Origin: a virus
Length of the DNA stretch: 25,479 nt
IMG/VR virus record: IMGVR_UViG_3300030118_006221
Location: 1-25,479 of that record
Reading direction: 5' to 3' (one strand)
Each line of letters begins with the position of its first letter. The stretch's first letter is position 1. Made by a program: the position numbers and the translations under genes. The notes beneath the pieces are model-generated. The model was not told where the DNA came from and did no database searches. It saw only the letters and a program-made list of their open reading frames with translations. Of this stretch, positions 2,555-22,460 are shown in pieces.

Positions 2555-3142
2555 ATGAGACCTGAGATTCTTGATCACGCAGCCTCTCTCGGACACACCG
2601 TATTCGAGAGTGGTCAGTACAATCTAAACATTATTGGTATTCGCAACGCTGATCATCAAGCCAACCGGTTTGATGACACCATCCACTGTGTGTACAAGGA
2701 CGAGGATGGTGATTGGATTCACAAGTCATGGCCATGCACTACAGAGCCGGGAAAGTATTGGCTTGAGAATCCTACTAATGTCAACGGCACCGCAGTGTTG
2801 GTCCCCGGTCAGTATCGATCTGTTTGGAAAATCGATAAGCACCAAGGCAAGTATTACGCTCTGTGTCAGCGAAACGGAACCGTGAAGGTATATCGTGACG
2901 ACAACCGTGATGAGATTATTGACTGCGACCCTGACACGATCACTGAAGGCTTTTATGGAATCAACATCCACAAGGCCGGTGCTCACTCGACTCAAATCGA
3001 TCGGTGGTCCGCAGGATGCCAAGTCTTCGCAAACGAGTCAGACTTCGATGAGTTCATGGTTATTTGTGGCAAAGCTCGTGAGAAGTGGGGCAACGCCTTT
3101 TCATACACTCTGATTCTCGAACACGAGAAAGGCTCTGACTGA
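2555..3142 (+). CDS. L,D-transpeptidase-like peptidoglycan enzyme, putative endolysin
   Basis: A protein of 195 residues starting at the ATG one base after the previous stop, so reinitiation is likely; an in-frame ATG at 2411 would overlap the preceding gene almost fully and is rejected. The C-terminal half contains GFYGINIHKAG followed about 14 residues later by WSAGCQVF. This His ... Ser-x-Gly-Cys arrangement is that of YkuD-type L,D-transpeptidase catalytic domains, with the cysteine as nucleophile. Such enzymes act on peptidoglycan stem peptides. No signal peptide is visible. Neighbouring small membrane and coiled-coil genes support a lysis or wall-remodelling role. Whether it cleaves or cross-links cannot be told from sequence. 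Confidence 0.75.
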   Translation: MRPEILDHAASLGHTVFESGQYNLNIIGIRNADHQANRFDDTIHCVYKDEDGDWIHKSWPCTTEPGKYWLENPTNVNGTAVLVPGQYRSVWKIDKHQGKYYALCQRNGTVKVYRDDNRDEIIDCDPDTITEGFYGINIHKAGAHSTQIDRWSAGCQVFANESDFDEFMVICGKAREKWGNAFSYTLILEHEKGSD

Positions 3143-7235: not shown

Positions 7236-8120
7236 TTATGAGGTGAAATCTTCTTCTGGCTCTGGCAAATCGTTTGCTTGAGCTCGTTCAACTAAGTCCT
7301 TTACCTTCGTCTTCCTTTTAGATTTAGGCTTGGCTTCTTGAACTTCAATAACATCTGATGATGCTTTTGTGTTGTCTTCTTCGATAACATTCGTCTGGAA
7401 TGTTTCATCAATTACATTTGGCTCATGAAAATCACTGGCAATGTCGTGCTCAACAACTGCCTTTGTCTTTGGTGAGAGAGGCAGGTATTTACAGATTCTT
7501 CGAACCACTGTTTTTCGCCACATCTCCTCGGTGTGCTTTGCCCAAGGTCCAGAGTCGGGATTGCGTGATGATTGTCGAATCTTGTTTATTTGATCTCGAC
7601 GCATCACTTCTACTTGATGTCCCCCGTTTTTAAAGTGAGCAACTGCGTATGCCAACCTAAGAGGACCGGGGTCACCATCGAAAAACTGCTTGTGTTTGAG
7701 TTGTTTTCCGCCATCCAAATCGAATGAACACTCAAACTCATCCTTTTCGTACACTACCTCAGCTGTAAAATGAGACACATCCCCAGAACGGAGAACTAAC
7801 TCCATCAATCCCGTGTACTCAATCCAGAGTTCAGCGTCATAAGTCTTTTTAGACTTGTTCCACATTGGAACCAGTGATGCTCGATGAAGTGCTCCGCCTG
7901 CCACGAGGTCCAGCTCACAAGCTTTGGCGAGTGCCATGTAGACTGACGTGGGACTGCACTGAACCAATCGTTCGTTCTTTGATGCCTCGAACATGGCGGT
8001 GCGGATGATTCTATCTACATCGGCTCCGTCTGGTGCAACGCTTACTAGGCTGCCCCTTTTTTTCTCGAGAAAATCGTTAAGGTGTACAAGTTTGTCCCTT
8101 GTGCTCAGTGATGTGCTCAT
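7236..8120 (-). CDS. recT: RecT family single-strand annealing protein
   Basis: A protein of 294 residues with the RecT pattern: FEASKNERLVQCSPTSVYMALAKACELDL, then ASLVPMWNKSKKTYDAELWIEYTGLMELVLRSG, and a C-terminal core with WAKHTEEMWRKTVVRRICKYLPLSP. RecT proteins bind ssDNA and dsDNA ends left by the partner exonuclease and anneal complementary strands. After about residue 215 the tail is charged and probably disordered. Its ATG overlaps the stop of the upstream YqaJ exonuclease gene (ATGA), the usual two-component recombinase pairing, so co-translation is expected. Confidence 0.95.
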   Translation of the reverse strand: MSTSLSTRDKLVHLNDFLEKKRGSLVSVAPDGADVDRIIRTAMFEASKNERLVQCSPTSVYMALAKACELDLVAGGALHRASLVPMWNKSKKTYDAELWIEYTGLMELVLRSGDVSHFTAEVVYEKDEFECSFDLDGGKQLKHKQFFDGDPGPLRLAYAVAHFKNGGHQVEVMRRDQINKIRQSSRNPDSGPWAKHTEEMWRKTVVRRICKYLPLSPKTKAVVEHDIASDFHEPNVIDETFQTNVIEEDNTKASSDVIEVQEAKPKSKRKTKVKDLVERAQANDLPEPEEDFTS

Positions 8121-10558: not shown

Positions 10559-11890
10559 TCAGTCCTCTACTTTGTTCTCTACAACTGAAGGCGTTTCAAT
10601 CGGTATGACGTTGTCTACATTTATCTTACGCCAAATGTATTTACGCTCACCATACACTCGAGCCCTAGTCTTTTCATACTGAAGATCTCTCATGATATCT
10701 GCAACTCTCATTTCTGATGCACGGGTCATCTGATACTTTTCGAGTTTGAGCGCATGATTCATAATATCTGTTGTTGAAGAAGCAGACGTGCTTGTCACCA
10801 ACCAGTTTTCTACAATCTCATGCCATGGGTCAATCTGCTTGAATTCAGATGATTGGTTTTCAAGTTCTTCTTGTATCTCGTTCTGTAAATACCACTTTTC
10901 ACCGTTGTTGTATGCAACCACGGCCTCGGCCCACATTTGCTCTCTGTTTTGCTCAGTCCAATCAGTATCGACTGTACCAATCTGAATCGGCCAATATCGA
11001 CGTGATCCAGTCTGGTCAGTAATAAACTCTGCTTTATTTGTTGTACCGCAGAAGACTGTGTGCCTTTTTAGGCTGACTGGCTGACGTGCATACGGTGCCC
11101 GAAATGTATCTTCCTGAGCAGAAAGAAAAGCTTTGGTGCTTGAGTTGCGAGCGCGGTGAATCGAATCGAGCTCTGCCACTTCATAAATCCATGCTCTATG
11201 AATCTGCATGTAGGCATTGCTTGTACCAATATCCATCGGTGTATCACAGAAGTACTCAGGGGACGCGAGGATTCGAAACGTCGTGCTTTTACGAGCACCT
11301 TGTGGGCCAACAAGGATCAGAACACAATCTGCCTTACAACCCGGCTCCATGGCCCTTGCAATGCATTGGATAAGCCACCGCCTGCCAATTTCTCTGGCTA
11401 GCTTCGTATCTTCAGTTCCGCACCCTCGGATCAACCATTCATCCATTCGTGGGACTCCGTCCCATACGATGTCTTTAAGCCAATCTACCAATGGGTTTTT
11501 ACCGTTTTCCTCAGCAATAAAGTTGATTGCCTCGACAATACAATCAGTGCTGAAATGGACACCGTAGTGATTGTACATCCACGTTTTTACCCGAGTGTAA
11601 TCGGTGTCCTTAAGTGGATTGTCTTCATGAAAAATCGTGTTGGTAAACTCATTAAGCCAAATCTTTTTCTTCCATCGTTTGTCTTTACCCATAATGATGA
11701 GCAAATTCGGAACAGTGGGTTTAATTTTTTGCTGACCATCCTTGCTGGTCTGCATTTCAAGCAGGCTTAAAATCTTACCGTCGACTCCCGAACTTTTGCT
11801 CTGACGATAATTCTTCTCCGCCATGTCCAACAAATCAGAAAGTCTTGGTGATCCCTGTTTCCCATCTATGATCGAATCAATATCACGCAT
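10559..11890 (-). CDS. VirE-type (virulence-associated E) P-loop helicase
   Basis: A protein of 443 residues from the ATG at 11890. The Walker A motif GPQGARKST is at about 195-203, a Walker B-like AWIYEVAELD at 233-242, a sensor-like FCGTTN at 280-285, then TGSRRYWPIQI at 295-305. Before the P-loop is the family-typical NPLVDWLKDIVWDGVPRMDEWL. This is the VirE/VapE family of SF3-like phage replicative helicases, which pair with a primase. The upstream gene is exactly such a primase. The start lies within the last codons of the primase gene, just after an 8-G run; the frame is open upstream to 11986, relevant to a possible fusion. Confidence 0.9.
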   Translation of the reverse strand: MRDIDSIIDGKQGSPRLSDLLDMAEKNYRQSKSSGVDGKILSLLEMQTSKDGQQKIKPTVPNLLIIMGKDKRWKKKIWLNEFTNTIFHEDNPLKDTDYTRVKTWMYNHYGVHFSTDCIVEAINFIAEENGKNPLVDWLKDIVWDGVPRMDEWLIRGCGTEDTKLAREIGRRWLIQCIARAMEPGCKADCVLILVGPQGARKSTTFRILASPEYFCDTPMDIGTSNAYMQIHRAWIYEVAELDSIHRARNSSTKAFLSAQEDTFRAPYARQPVSLKRHTVFCGTTNKAEFITDQTGSRRYWPIQIGTVDTDWTEQNREQMWAEAVVAYNNGEKWYLQNEIQEELENQSSEFKQIDPWHEIVENWLVTSTSASSTTDIMNHALKLEKYQMTRASEMRVADIMRDLQYEKTRARVYGERKYIWRKINVDNVIPIETPSVVENKVED

Positions 11891-12899
11891 TGTTTCCCCC
11901 CCCGTACTGCTCAAGAGGTATGCGATATGAGATTCGGTCTGAAAGTTGCTGCTTGATTTTGTTTGCGTACTCCCTACCTTGCTCATCAGGATCGGTTCCG
12001 ATGTAGACTTTTAGATTTTTTGGAATATTTAGTTTTGAGATCGAAGAAAAAGCACCTGATGCCCCACCTAAAACTGCGAGTTTCATGCCCAAATCTTCGA
12101 CTTCTGCAGCGCATTTGAGAAAATCTGTCAGACCCTCTACAAATAAAACTCCTTCTAAGTCGACATCCAAACCTTTAAGCATTTTTACAGCGAATCGATT
12201 CGGCATGAAAAGTCCTTTTGCTTCGTAGCCCTTGGGCCATAAGGTTTTTGGAGCAGACTCAGGGGATCGAATAGCTCGCCCGTGAAGACTAACAAACTTT
12301 CCTGATTCATCGAAAGCTGGAACAACTACTCGCCAGAGATTGCTTCGACCTGCAGGCCACCAATCCGGCCAGATGTAGTCAGATCTTTTTGGTGTGAATC
12401 GAACAACTCCAGATTTAGCCAAAGCTTTCAGATTTAAATTACGGGTCTTAAGGAAATCAATACACTCGTCATTGTTTGGAAGTTGATGCAGCTGCATACT
12501 ACTTTTCCACAACTCAGTGACCTCGTTCAGTGGTGGTCGTTCACCCCTAAGCTTCGTTGGCTCTGTAGATACGACTGCACCATCTTTGATTTCTCCACTG
12601 AACCATTCAGATACTTTGTCCTTGGATTCCTTGGGGAGATCTACAAACTTCGATGCACCTATGACAAACGAAACGAGGTCTATACCTGATCCTTTTGCTC
12701 CGCATCGATGGCATGCCCATCCTTTGTTGTCGGTACGAATCCCGATCGCACCACGTTTATCTTTCGACCCTCGCTCTTTTGCTGCACAACTCGGACATGG
12801 TCCAATCGAGTTTGCCTTCATTAGCGTTAGTCCAAGTCTCTTTGCTACTTCTGTTACTGCTATACGTTCTGCTGCCTGTATCCACACGGATGGCTCCAT
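11883..12899 (-). CDS. CHC2-zinc-finger / Toprim DNA primase
   Basis: A protein of 338 residues. An N-terminal zinc ribbon has CPSC (C35, C38) and CHRC (C63, C66), typical of DnaG-like primases. A Toprim domain follows with VLFVEGLTDF (E255) and the acidic pair in YIGTDPDEQG (D303, D305), which binds catalytic Mg. It would synthesise RNA primers for the adjacent VirE-type helicase. The protein ends YGGGNNA, where the GGG codons are an 8-G run. The ATG at 12899 has no clear ribosome binding site; the next upstream gene ends 32 bases before it. Confidence 0.92.
   Translation of the reverse strand: MEPSVWIQAAERIAVTEVAKRLGLTLMKANSIGPCPSCAAKERGSKDKRGAIGIRTDNKGWACHRCGAKGSGIDLVSFVIGASKFVDLPKESKDKVSEWFSGEIKDGAVVSTEPTKLRGERPPLNEVTELWKSSMQLHQLPNNDECIDFLKTRNLNLKALAKSGVVRFTPKRSDYIWPDWWPAGRSNLWRVVVPAFDESGKFVSLHGRAIRSPESAPKTLWPKGYEAKGLFMPNRFAVKMLKGLDVDLEGVLFVEGLTDFLKCAAEVEDLGMKLAVLGGASGAFSSISKLNIPKNLKVYIGTDPDEQGREYANKIKQQLSDRISYRIPLEQYGGGNNA
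11895..11902 (-). other. 8-G homopolymer at the primase/helicase junction
   Basis: Eight consecutive G on the coding strand (C8 on plus), read GGG GGG GG in the primase frame. The primase stop is nine bases further on. The loss of one G would put the primase in the helicase frame, which is open across this point. Confidence 0.9.
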
Positions 12900-15012: not shown

Positions 15013-15287
15013 TTAATATCCTTTGGTGCATGACCACTCGATGCTTCAGCAATCATGTTCTCAGCATCATCGAGCAGTAGTTCGACGGTCATGATGAACT
15101 TGTTGCACTCTACGCATTTACGTTTTCGTGCCACGAAGTCACATGTGTACCAGTCAACAACTTTTGCTACCTTGTTTACCTCGGCACCCTTTCCCGGCTT
15201 GGCTAAAGACCTTGTCGCAAGAACGATGGTCTTGGATCCGCATGTACTACAGTTCATCTGGAACGGCCCTCGATATCTTTTCGACAT
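15009..15287 (-). CDS. NrdR-like zinc ribbon protein
   Basis: A protein of 92 residues from the ATG at 15287, overlapping the helicase 3' end by 41 bases. Cysteines C13/C16 (NCSTCGSK) and C58/C61 (RKRKCVECNKFIMTVE) are spaced like the N-terminal zinc ribbon of NrdR, in which R-R-R-x-C-x-x-C-x-x-R-F-T-T-Y-E follows an initial CxxC. The ATP-cone of NrdR is absent, so this is a stand-alone ribbon. It could bind DNA or regulate nucleotide metabolism (inference). A fifth Cys at 49 lies between the pairs. Confidence 0.7.
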   Translation of the reverse strand: MSKRYRGPFQMNCSTCGSKTIVLATRSLAKPGKGAEVNKVAKVVDWYTCDFVARKRKCVECNKFIMTVELLLDDAENMIAEASSGHAPKDIK

Positions 15288-16695
15288 TGCATCCGAGCTC
15301 TTTGTAGAACCGAGAACGCTTTTTGTGCATGTAGAATAGAGCCTTGACTGCATCGACAAGGTCGATCACCACTGGCTTTCTTTTGTTTTCTGCGTATCGC
15401 ATAATGCGACCTATACGCTGCTGTATTCGACCCAGAGATTTTGTGGGTGTGGTCAGTATGAGTGTATCTAGACCGGGGAGGTCTAAGCCCTCATCGGCTA
15501 CAGTCGTAGCAAACAACGCCTTCAACTCCCTAGCATCAGCCAGTTCCAAGACCTCTGCTCTCTGTTTCTTGGTCATCTTACCGACCAGTGTCGCAGCTGC
15601 TATGCCACGATCTGCAGTTGACTCTGCAAGATACTGACAATGATTAACCCTATCACTCAAGACCAACACTTGACGACCATCGCTTACGAATCGCTCAACC
15701 AAGTCAAGTATCTGTTGGTTACGTTCATCACTCTCAACCATGCCTTTGATGAGCTTTGTCCACTCTCCGTCTACCTTCGGTTTCCAAAGAGTAGCGAGAA
15801 AATGCACAGTTGGTGCAATGACTCGACCTGACTGAATCAGGTCTGCGGTCTCTATACGCTTCACAGCTGCACCGAAGTGCCAGTACATGATGTCACTCAA
15901 CCCGTCCGGTCGGTCGGGCGTCGCGGTCAGAGCGAGTCGCGCTTGGGCTGGCATGCCAAACATCACTGCACTGAAGGTCGATGCAGGAACGTGGTGGGCC
16001 TCATCCACAATGCACAAACCGAACTGCTTTCCGAACTCGAGCAGATCATCGAAGCGCATCCGTGCCAAGGTCTGAAAGCTCGCGATGACGATGTCTCCAG
16101 TGTCATCTTTCTTACCGTTGCCGTACATGGTGACCTTGACGTCATCACCCGTAGGTACGAGGCTACTACCGTCTTCAGTGGTGAGTTGAGCAGCAATACG
16201 ATCTTTCCATTGCGAGGCGAGATCTGAAGTATGCACCAGCACAATCGTTTTCTGGTCGCAGATCTGCATGGCTCCAAGACCCATCATGGTCTTGCCTGCA
16301 CCACAGGGTGCGACGATGATGCCTTCGCATCCAGCTTGATGCCATTTGTGAATGGCGTCCCTCTGGTAGTCTCGGAGCTCGATACCTTCGCGGAACATGA
16401 AAGAAGGTGCCAATCCAAATGTGGTTGCTGAGATATGCTCAAGACCCTTATATCGATTCAGGTCAATCCCCCTCGGAATCATCAAGCCACCACCCCACTT
16501 GTGCCAGAACGGAATCGTCTGGCATGCGAACACATGCGTAGGAGGGATGTCTACCCACTTGCCCTTGTCACGCAGTGACTGAGCTTGAGCGTAGGCAGGG
16601 TTGTTGCACCGGTACCGACGCTTGATGGTTTCCAAGTGGGGACTGGATGGCGGTATGAAGTAACCACCGCTCTTGACGCATGCATTCATTGTCAT
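15247..16695 (-). CDS. DEAD/DEAH-box (SF2) helicase
   Basis: A protein of 482 residues with SF2 motifs in order: a Q-like LRDYQRDAIHKW (107-118), motif I APCGAGKT (129-136), Ia VHTSDLASQW, motif II DEAHH (231-235), motif III LTATPDR (256-262), and C-terminal motifs VADEGLDLPGLD and QRIGRIMRY. This is the RecG/UvrB/type-III-like group common in phages (UvsW-like). It probably unwinds branched DNA during recombination and replication. A conserved AAAGAGAG leader precedes the ATG at 16695. Neighbours are SSB, an NrdR-like ribbon and an XF1762 protein. Confidence 0.93.
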   Translation of the reverse strand: MTMNACVKSGGYFIPPSSPHLETIKRRYRCNNPAYAQAQSLRDKGKWVDIPPTHVFACQTIPFWHKWGGGLMIPRGIDLNRYKGLEHISATTFGLAPSFMFREGIELRDYQRDAIHKWHQAGCEGIIVAPCGAGKTMMGLGAMQICDQKTIVLVHTSDLASQWKDRIAAQLTTEDGSSLVPTGDDVKVTMYGNGKKDDTGDIVIASFQTLARMRFDDLLEFGKQFGLCIVDEAHHVPASTFSAVMFGMPAQARLALTATPDRPDGLSDIMYWHFGAAVKRIETADLIQSGRVIAPTVHFLATLWKPKVDGEWTKLIKGMVESDERNQQILDLVERFVSDGRQVLVLSDRVNHCQYLAESTADRGIAAATLVGKMTKKQRAEVLELADARELKALFATTVADEGLDLPGLDTLILTTPTKSLGRIQQRIGRIMRYAENKRKPVVIDLVDAVKALFYMHKKRSRFYKELGCNVEKISRAVPDEL

Positions 16696-21336: not shown

Positions 21337-21387
21337 CTATACTAAACCTTGTGTTTTTGTGGTTAGATACCACAAGATTTAGTGTAG
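21337..21387. promoter_or_regulatory. 17-bp inverted repeat over the operon promoter
   Basis: Arms at 21337-21353 and 21371-21387, paired at 15 of 17 positions, with a 17-nt spacer. The right arm read on the minus strand is CTACACTAAATCTTGTG. The left arm includes ACTATA (TATAGT, a possible -10 on the minus strand at 21336-21341). It lies upstream of the gene starting at 21304, and half-sites contain ACACTAAA, related to the CACTA operators. Confidence 0.55.
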
Positions 21388-21422
21388 CTTCTATTCAGTA
21401 TCTAATAACATAAGTGTTGCTG

Positions 21423-21690
21423 TCAAGGTAAACATATCACTTTTTTCGCCGGGTATGCGGACAATAAATGTCCGATTGATGCTAATGGTGGGATAGCAAC
21501 CGGGACAGATGGCTGAACGGTGGGACGGGTAAAAACGCTGTGCTGCTCTAATGTCCTAACTGTCCTAACCTTACTCCCTTTATAAGGGTCTGAGTAATAG
21601 AGTGGTATAGAGAGCGTTATACCCAGAACCCCTCTATAGGCAGAGCAGGGGGACAATGGGACAGAAGGATTGTCTGTTCTCGAAAGTGAC
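21423..21690. other. Structured noncoding region with GGACA/TGTCC repeats
   Basis: No convincing gene. Inverted repeats in order: CGGACA-N5-TGTCCG (21458-21474), CCCTT-TAT-AAGGG (21576-21588), GGTATA-N8-TATACC (21604-21623), CCCCT-N13-AGGGG (21629-21651), and GACAAT-N11-ATTGTC (21652-21674). TGTCCTAAC occurs twice head to tail at 21552-21569, and GGACA or TGTCC appears about seven times. It could be an origin, a packaging or recombination site, or a structured RNA. Confidence 0.5.
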
Positions 21691-21699
21691 CATTGAACC

Positions 21700-22155
21700 T
21701 TACTTATCATGTGACCCAACCTCGATGGAGGATAGGACAGGCTCAATCTGACCACCCGGATGCAGAATGATGTGAACCTGATACCCATCGGAAACCCAGT
21801 GGCGAGTCAGTAAACAAGACCAACCATGCAGCTGGTCAGATGTGTACCGACTTCGACCACTGCCCCCACGCAAGAAGTTAAAGACCTTCGTGGTACTCTC
21901 ATGCAATACCGCAGCAAACTCATGGAAAGAACCCGGACGAGATAAGGATGACTCAAGACGACGCCACAAAATGTACAGGCGAACAGCACCAGCCTGAACC
22001 TCAGAACGAATCTTCAAACCGGTCAGGTGATTGTCTAAACTCCGCTCAAAGGATTCAATCCCACCCGGCGGGATCTCGCAAAGCATCTCACGGTTCTTCG
22101 ATATCAAACGGCTCCAGCGTAATGAACGGGGAGCATCAGGGTACAAATCACTCAT
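21700..22155 (-). CDS. Unknown protein
   Basis: A protein of 151 residues from the ATG at 22155, preceded by AAGGAA and a plausible promoter. Features: SLRWSRLISKNREMLCEIPPGGIESFERSLDNHLTG, a central LYILWRRLESSLSRPGSFHEFAAVLHEST and a glycine-rich RGGSGRSR. Basic overall and soluble. Codon use looks like a coding gene. Its 5' end overlaps by 34 bases the start of a divergent plus-strand gene. No family is recognised. Confidence 0.7.
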   Translation of the reverse strand: MSDLYPDAPRSLRWSRLISKNREMLCEIPPGGIESFERSLDNHLTGLKIRSEVQAGAVRLYILWRRLESSLSRPGSFHEFAAVLHESTTKVFNFLRGGSGRSRYTSDQLHGWSCLLTRHWVSDGYQVHIILHPGGQIEPVLSSIEVGSHDK

Positions 22156-22460
22156 TTGGTATTCCTTCTGTTTTCTACTCAACGTCGCAATATATCTACA
22201 ATCAGTATACTTTTGAATGGATTGATGAGCTGGATGCCTTCGGTGGACGGATAGTTCGGGCGGCCATCGAAAATGCCTCGCCAAATGTATGGGACCGTGC
22301 GATTGATGCGAGGCGCCATTTCATAGGTAAAACCTACCATATGGAGCAGGCCGTCCTGAATAGTGCTTTCGGCAACCCGAAAAAGGCGCCAGACACCCCT
22401 TCGTCGAGGGTGCGTAGGGCGGCAAGGCAACGCCACAAAAGGGGTCCAAAGTCCGAATGA
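22122..22460 (+). CDS. Possible small basic protein on the plus strand
   Basis: A protein of 112 residues if started at the ATG at 22122; the upstream in-frame starts would lie entirely inside the opposite gene. From about codon 32 the sequence is very protein-like (FEWIDELDAFGGRIVRAAIENASPNVWDRAIDARRHFIGK), with G-initial codons predominating as in real genes, and the C-terminus is basic (SSRVRRAARQRHKRGPKSE), suggesting nucleic-acid binding. There is no clear ribosome binding site. It might be a remnant whose true start is lost. Convergent with the gene at 22653. Confidence 0.5.
   Translation: MNGEHQGTNHSFGIPSVFYSTSQYIYNQYTFEWIDELDAFGGRIVRAAIENASPNVWDRAIDARRHFIGKTYHMEQAVLNSAFGNPKKAPDTPSSRVRRAARQRHKRGPKSE
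22189..22217 (-). promoter_or_regulatory. Sigma70-like promoter for the 21700-22155 gene
   Basis: On the minus strand TTCAAA (22212-22217), a 17-nt spacer, then TATATT (22189-22194). The -10 matches 5 of 6 and the -35 4 of 6. It lies 34 nt before the start codon, within the possible plus-strand gene. Confidence 0.5.

Follow-up and report, generated by a model that had tools for sequence, protein, structure and literature searches.

The window analysed here, the whole 25,479-nt stretch of an IMG/VR phage contig, contains a block at 21423–21690 that lies between a gene encoding a 151-aa protein (22155–21700, minus strand) and a leftward replication operon, whose gene set comprises RecT, a RecE-like protein, a VapE-like helicase, a Toprim-like primase, and an SF2 helicase. 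The features of the locus are as follows.

10559–11986, minus strand: VapE-like replicative helicase (PF05272, E = 1.2e-76), proposed initiator and putative box binder
11883–12899, minus strand: Toprim-like DNA primase
15247–16695, minus strand: SF2 helicase, in the same direction as the operon and used as the query for relatives
21397–21426, minus strand: putative σ70-like promoter, TTGACA–18 nt–GATACT, a match to consensus only, kept in the two nearest relatives
21458–21474, no strand: dyad CGGACA-N5-TGTCCG, perfect in the window and in relative L003, with one mismatch in relative L002
21503–21507, minus strand: further box, TGTCC on the minus strand
21552–21569, minus strand: second iteron set, two head-to-tail copies of GTTAGGACA (on the plus strand, two of TGTCCTAAC), with the strongest conservation in the block
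21566–21650, no strand: spacer between the iteron sets, candidate melting region
21651–21663, minus strand: first iteron set, two TGTCC boxes with starts 8 nt apart, matching one to three same-orientation boxes in 10 aligned relatives
21700–22155, minus strand: 151-aa protein just upstream of the block, coding by codon positions and a probable Cro/CI-like helix-turn-helix (HTH) protein by structure model

The VapE-like helicase gene is about 10 kb from the block. A spanin-like gene (E = 0.0005) on the other arm of the window suggests a Gram-negative host, and TTATNCACA, the DnaA box consensus expected of a DnaA-dependent origin, occurs on neither strand of the window. A 17-nt inverted repeat (21337–21387, 88% complementary) separates the promoter-like site from the next gene; it is kept in L002 and could serve as an operator or form a hairpin in a leader. 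A second conserved frame (22156–22460, plus strand) diverges from the 151-aa gene, on the opposite strand, and shows 50–66% amino-acid identity over 101 codons with a mild third-position excess; its start may overlap that gene.

The first-pass annotation had described about seven GGACA/TGTCC words in the block, including a head-to-tail pair, and both points hold. Specifically, seven words start at 21459, 21469, 21503, 21552, 21561, 21651, and 21659 within the 268 nt, and the TGTCCTAAC pair at 21552–21569 is exact. Seven words were reached in 0 of 2000 block shuffles (maximum 4) and in no 268-nt stretch of 200 shuffled windows (maximum 5), and when any 5-mer was counted, seven copies were attained in 1 of 500 block shuffles. 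With 6-mers, the top count of the block is 3, which was equalled in 156 of 300 shuffles and is not significant, so the repeat is limited to the five-base core. Read on the minus strand, the block presents two TGTCC boxes, about 90 nt, two GGACA boxes, and then mixed copies. In the window, the spacer is only mildly AT-rich (AT 0.43–0.63), and values in relatives reach 0.8.

The block is genuine and is kept in relatives. A first round of searching with the 151-aa protein returned two contigs, in both of which the block is conserved, with a near-invariant core of GGACAGT followed by GGACATTAGAGCAG and with the promoter-like site also present. A scan with the SF2 helicase collected 32 loci, 11 of which carry the 151-aa gene at ~40–81% protein identity. 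Directly downstream of that gene, all 11 loci (one of them, L044, a near-duplicate of another, L036) have 5–9 words per 270 nt, in each case the densest cluster of the locus; for L038, the exact window begins just after the 151-aa gene. An alignment of the window with 10 of the 11 relatives shows that the order of orientations is kept: one to three TGTCC boxes, a spacer of ~90–118 nt, one or two GGACA boxes, and mixed boxes. The box most often reads GGTAGGGACA; in the branch of the window it is GGTTAGGACA. A second repeated word, GGTTCAA, adjoins the boxes in the blocks of the window, L019, L024, L030, L036, L038, and L039. Phage DNA matches were found neither for the region nor for the block of L032, and scans of genome contigs gave no match.

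The absence of a gene from the block, as stated in the first-pass annotation, is borne out, even with a 121-aa open frame running across it. Substitutions by codon position in this frame are 19/18/25 and 38/31/37, without a third-position excess, whereas those of the neighbouring gene are 27/13/53, and several indels in the block are not multiples of three, which counts against coding; a protein-coding block was therefore rejected. On the gene strand, most of the 11 blocks do contain a long stop-free frame (as many as 90 of 90 codons), but in L036 and L028 no frame exceeds 53 codons.

The same boxes recur beside replicative helicases in other viral sequences. A first box pattern found L075, a contig in which about 12 words adjoin a gene for a VapE-like helicase and in which neither an HTH homologue nor an SF2 helicase was detected. 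A second pattern, TAGGGACANTAGGGACA, used in a DNA-only scan for the box pair, returned 72 viral stretches, with a word density around the pair of 8.2/kb versus a background of 1.95/kb. At least four words (the pair itself accounting for two) lie within 300 nt of the pair in 55 of the 72 stretches, and the remaining 17 have two or three words, the level expected by chance. A VapE-like helicase is encoded in 25 of the 55 box-rich stretches versus 0 of the 17 others (Fisher p = 0.0003, a value that overstates independence since many of the 25 are close relatives), and the boxes lie within ~260 nt of the 3′ end of the helicase match in 24 of the 25, the gene in L148 being 3 kb away. Among the 30 other clusters, neighbours chosen by hand were inspected for 16. 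Nine of these have a replicative-domain neighbour (L081, L084, L087, L105, L106, L121, L138, L147, and L149), comprising DUF5906, D5_N, PriCT_2/Prim-Pol, DUF3987, or Toprim with AAA_25, and seven have none (L085, L088, L093, L097, L101, L102, and L127). In L097, the box cluster (2876–3134) adjoins an FtsK-like gene, not a helicase. A more distant SF2 relative, L041, carries GTGGAC boxes in alternating orientation at 7354–7610, flanked on one side by a DUF927 helicase carrying a Cch HTH domain and on the other by an SF2 helicase; this cluster is likely an origin with another box. Among the papers listed in literature searches, no description of the TGTCC/GGACA box as an origin was seen, and those listed for the literal motif (25 of 1,864) seemed unrelated judging by their titles.

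On these comparisons of sequence, we consider it quite likely that the block is a phage replication origin, composed of two opposite box sets and a spacer, with the VapE-like helicase as the putative initiator. The origin or iteron cluster proposed in the first-pass annotation thus gains from the boxes and orientations conserved in 11 relatives, from their recurrence beside helicases, and from the layout of the Sfi21 origin described below; the structured RNA proposed with it does not stand. In the mechanism we propose, the core TGTCC/GGACA boxes, in two sets of opposite orientation, would flank a spacer of ~90–100 nt; the VapE-like helicase would recognise the boxes, probably via its C-terminal domain, assemble on both sets, open the spacer, and start replication; transcription of the replication operon would begin at the adjacent promoter; and the HTH protein may regulate that promoter or the origin. 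Because boxes are found elsewhere with helicases and without the 151-aa protein, the helicase is the better candidate for the binder, and likely the binder. A helicase C-terminus like that of the window occurs in 7 of the 9 box-sharing helicases compared, with L089 and L099 differing, and the helicase of Marinobacter phage PS3 has a similar C-terminus despite a different box; the C-terminus thus tracks the box imperfectly, and the binder is inferred. A check of GC skew, suggested earlier for an origin, gave a mixed answer. In each of the three contigs profiled, the raw skew changes close to the block. When four-fold sites were used to control for gene strand, however, only 2 of 8 contigs showed a significant step there (p = 0.002 and 0.042), and in none of the 8 did the best change point coincide with the block. 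Under this control the shift is thus not robust, and we count it as weak.

In favour of a structured or regulatory RNA, both strands of the block fold slightly better than shuffles (z of −2.0 and −1.9). However, much of the pairing forms between one box copy and another, an Rfam search of the block gave no match, and the consensus fold of 11 sequences reaches only −6.9 kcal/mol with 12 pairs, mostly box letters, and little covariation. The covariation in relatives that had been put forward as a check failed to appear, the flanks of the boxes changing independently (35 of 55 flank pairs, against 33.8 with shuffled partners). The hairpins listed in the first-pass annotation are accordingly weak, and we regard an RNA as highly improbable. 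Under a further reading, the block is a centromere-like (partition) or DNA packaging site with its repeats as the binding target. Such sites, too, typically have repeated boxes in non-coding DNA, and some clusters from the scan adjoin terminase genes (L127, L085, and L102). Most clusters with inspected neighbours, however, adjoin replicative helicases or primases, and the scanned proteins of the window include no identified terminase close to the block, so that such a site seems improbable here.

A closer competitor is the 151-aa protein, which might itself bind the boxes and explain them. Its structure model has a pLDDT of 77 (an earlier model from 3 sequences, with a pLDDT of 50, was set aside), and the top fold matches are mostly XRE-type HTH proteins, which is consistent with a Cro/CI-like HTH but weak (Z at most 5.2); Foldseek gave no match with E under 0.001, the HTH_3 family match is marginal (E = 0.12) and confined to 1 of 11 members, and no plasmid or phage protein matches were found. 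This probable HTH protein is encoded beside the boxes in 12 of 12 contigs having the gene, and a promoter-like site after the boxes is conserved in the three closest contigs. Against this, the same boxes adjoin VapE and other replicative helicases without the 151-aa protein, HTH queries matched only L005 among the 72 box-pair stretches, and the boxes are mostly upstream of the promoter and scattered over 200 nt. The recurrence of the boxes without the HTH protein leads us to downgrade it as the cause of box identity, and we judge this explanation unlikely.

Origins of uncultured phages are seldom annotated, and a recognisable box word with a fixed layout offers a route to finding them from sequence alone. 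More speculatively, and with a good deal of doubt, TAGGGACA might be a portable origin address, one iteron word serving many unrelated phages whose initiators are VapE, DUF5906/D5, DUF3987, or Toprim-AAA proteins; it might be maintained because origins are exchanged horizontally or because a binding factor, shared or from the host, recognises it, and phages and satellites might use or compete for each other's initiators. If one box does serve several helicase families, whether phages and satellites use each other's origins can be tested directly.

Among known systems, the origins of phage-inducible elements of the PICI/SaPI type (rep-ori; E. coli PICIs) are closest in plan. In PICI origins, an AT-rich region is flanked by two iteron sets (PMC6092414), the sets lie directly 3′ of the initiator gene (PMC6092414, PMC7145576, PMC7581432), and SaPI Rep recognises its own iterons through its C-terminal domain (PMC7581432). 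As in these origins, short iterons in the block form two sets with a spacer between them, and like these elements, the window encodes a primase (Toprim-like) and an initiator-type helicase (VapE-like). Unlike them, the block (21423–21690) does not lie immediately 3′ of the helicase gene (10559–11986) and is instead ~10 kb away, beside the HTH gene; on account of this position, we liken the block to PICI/SaPI origins and do not count it as a member. Furthermore, the known origins of this type reside on satellites, whereas the block is on a phage contig with lysis genes, and an integrase (PF00589) was detected in 0 of the 12 contigs, all of which may be fragments. The comparison suggests that the PICI-type arrangement may be shared by ordinary phages. 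The SCCmec Cch2 origin is similar in that short direct repeats located downstream of the gene for an initiator-type helicase are bound by that helicase, and differs in having three AAGTG repeats and a helicase of another family (PMC7581432).

We also compared the helicase regions of seven named phages: Haddon, PS3, EFP1, Sfi21, 2638A, EMB2, and P2559Y. Boxes do not cluster in the helicase region of EMB2, where 130 of 300 shuffles scored as high; in P2559Y, no gap follows the helicase gene; and 2638A has a weaker cluster (24 of 300) with a different layout. Unannotated boxes lie just after the primase-helicase gene in PS3 (GGTCAC; L151, 5200–5465) and in EFP1 (TATCCA; L154, 5420–5720), with 0 of 300 shuffles as high in each. 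Pseudomonas phage Haddon (PQ571161), whose helicase is the best named match to that of the window, has ten TGTCC/GGACA boxes with the same TGTCC core and nearly the same map; its cluster differs in lying ~0.4 kb past the helicase gene and bears no origin annotation in the part of the record retrieved. In Streptococcus phage Sfi21 (NC_000872), the origin, so designated in the record annotation, is a 302-bp non-coding stretch directly following a putative primase gene, and its spacer, which is AT-rich, is flanked by opposite box pairs, the latter as in the window; its box is GTTACT instead of TGTCC (6 of 300 shuffles as high), and its host is Gram-positive. The layout maps are 37> 45> 135< 144< for the window, 86> 94> 196< 205< 213< for Haddon, 83> 101> 181< 199< for PS3, and 92> 100> 183< for the annotated origin of Sfi21, and all four share one order: a pair, 80–102 nt, an opposite box or pair, and then single boxes.
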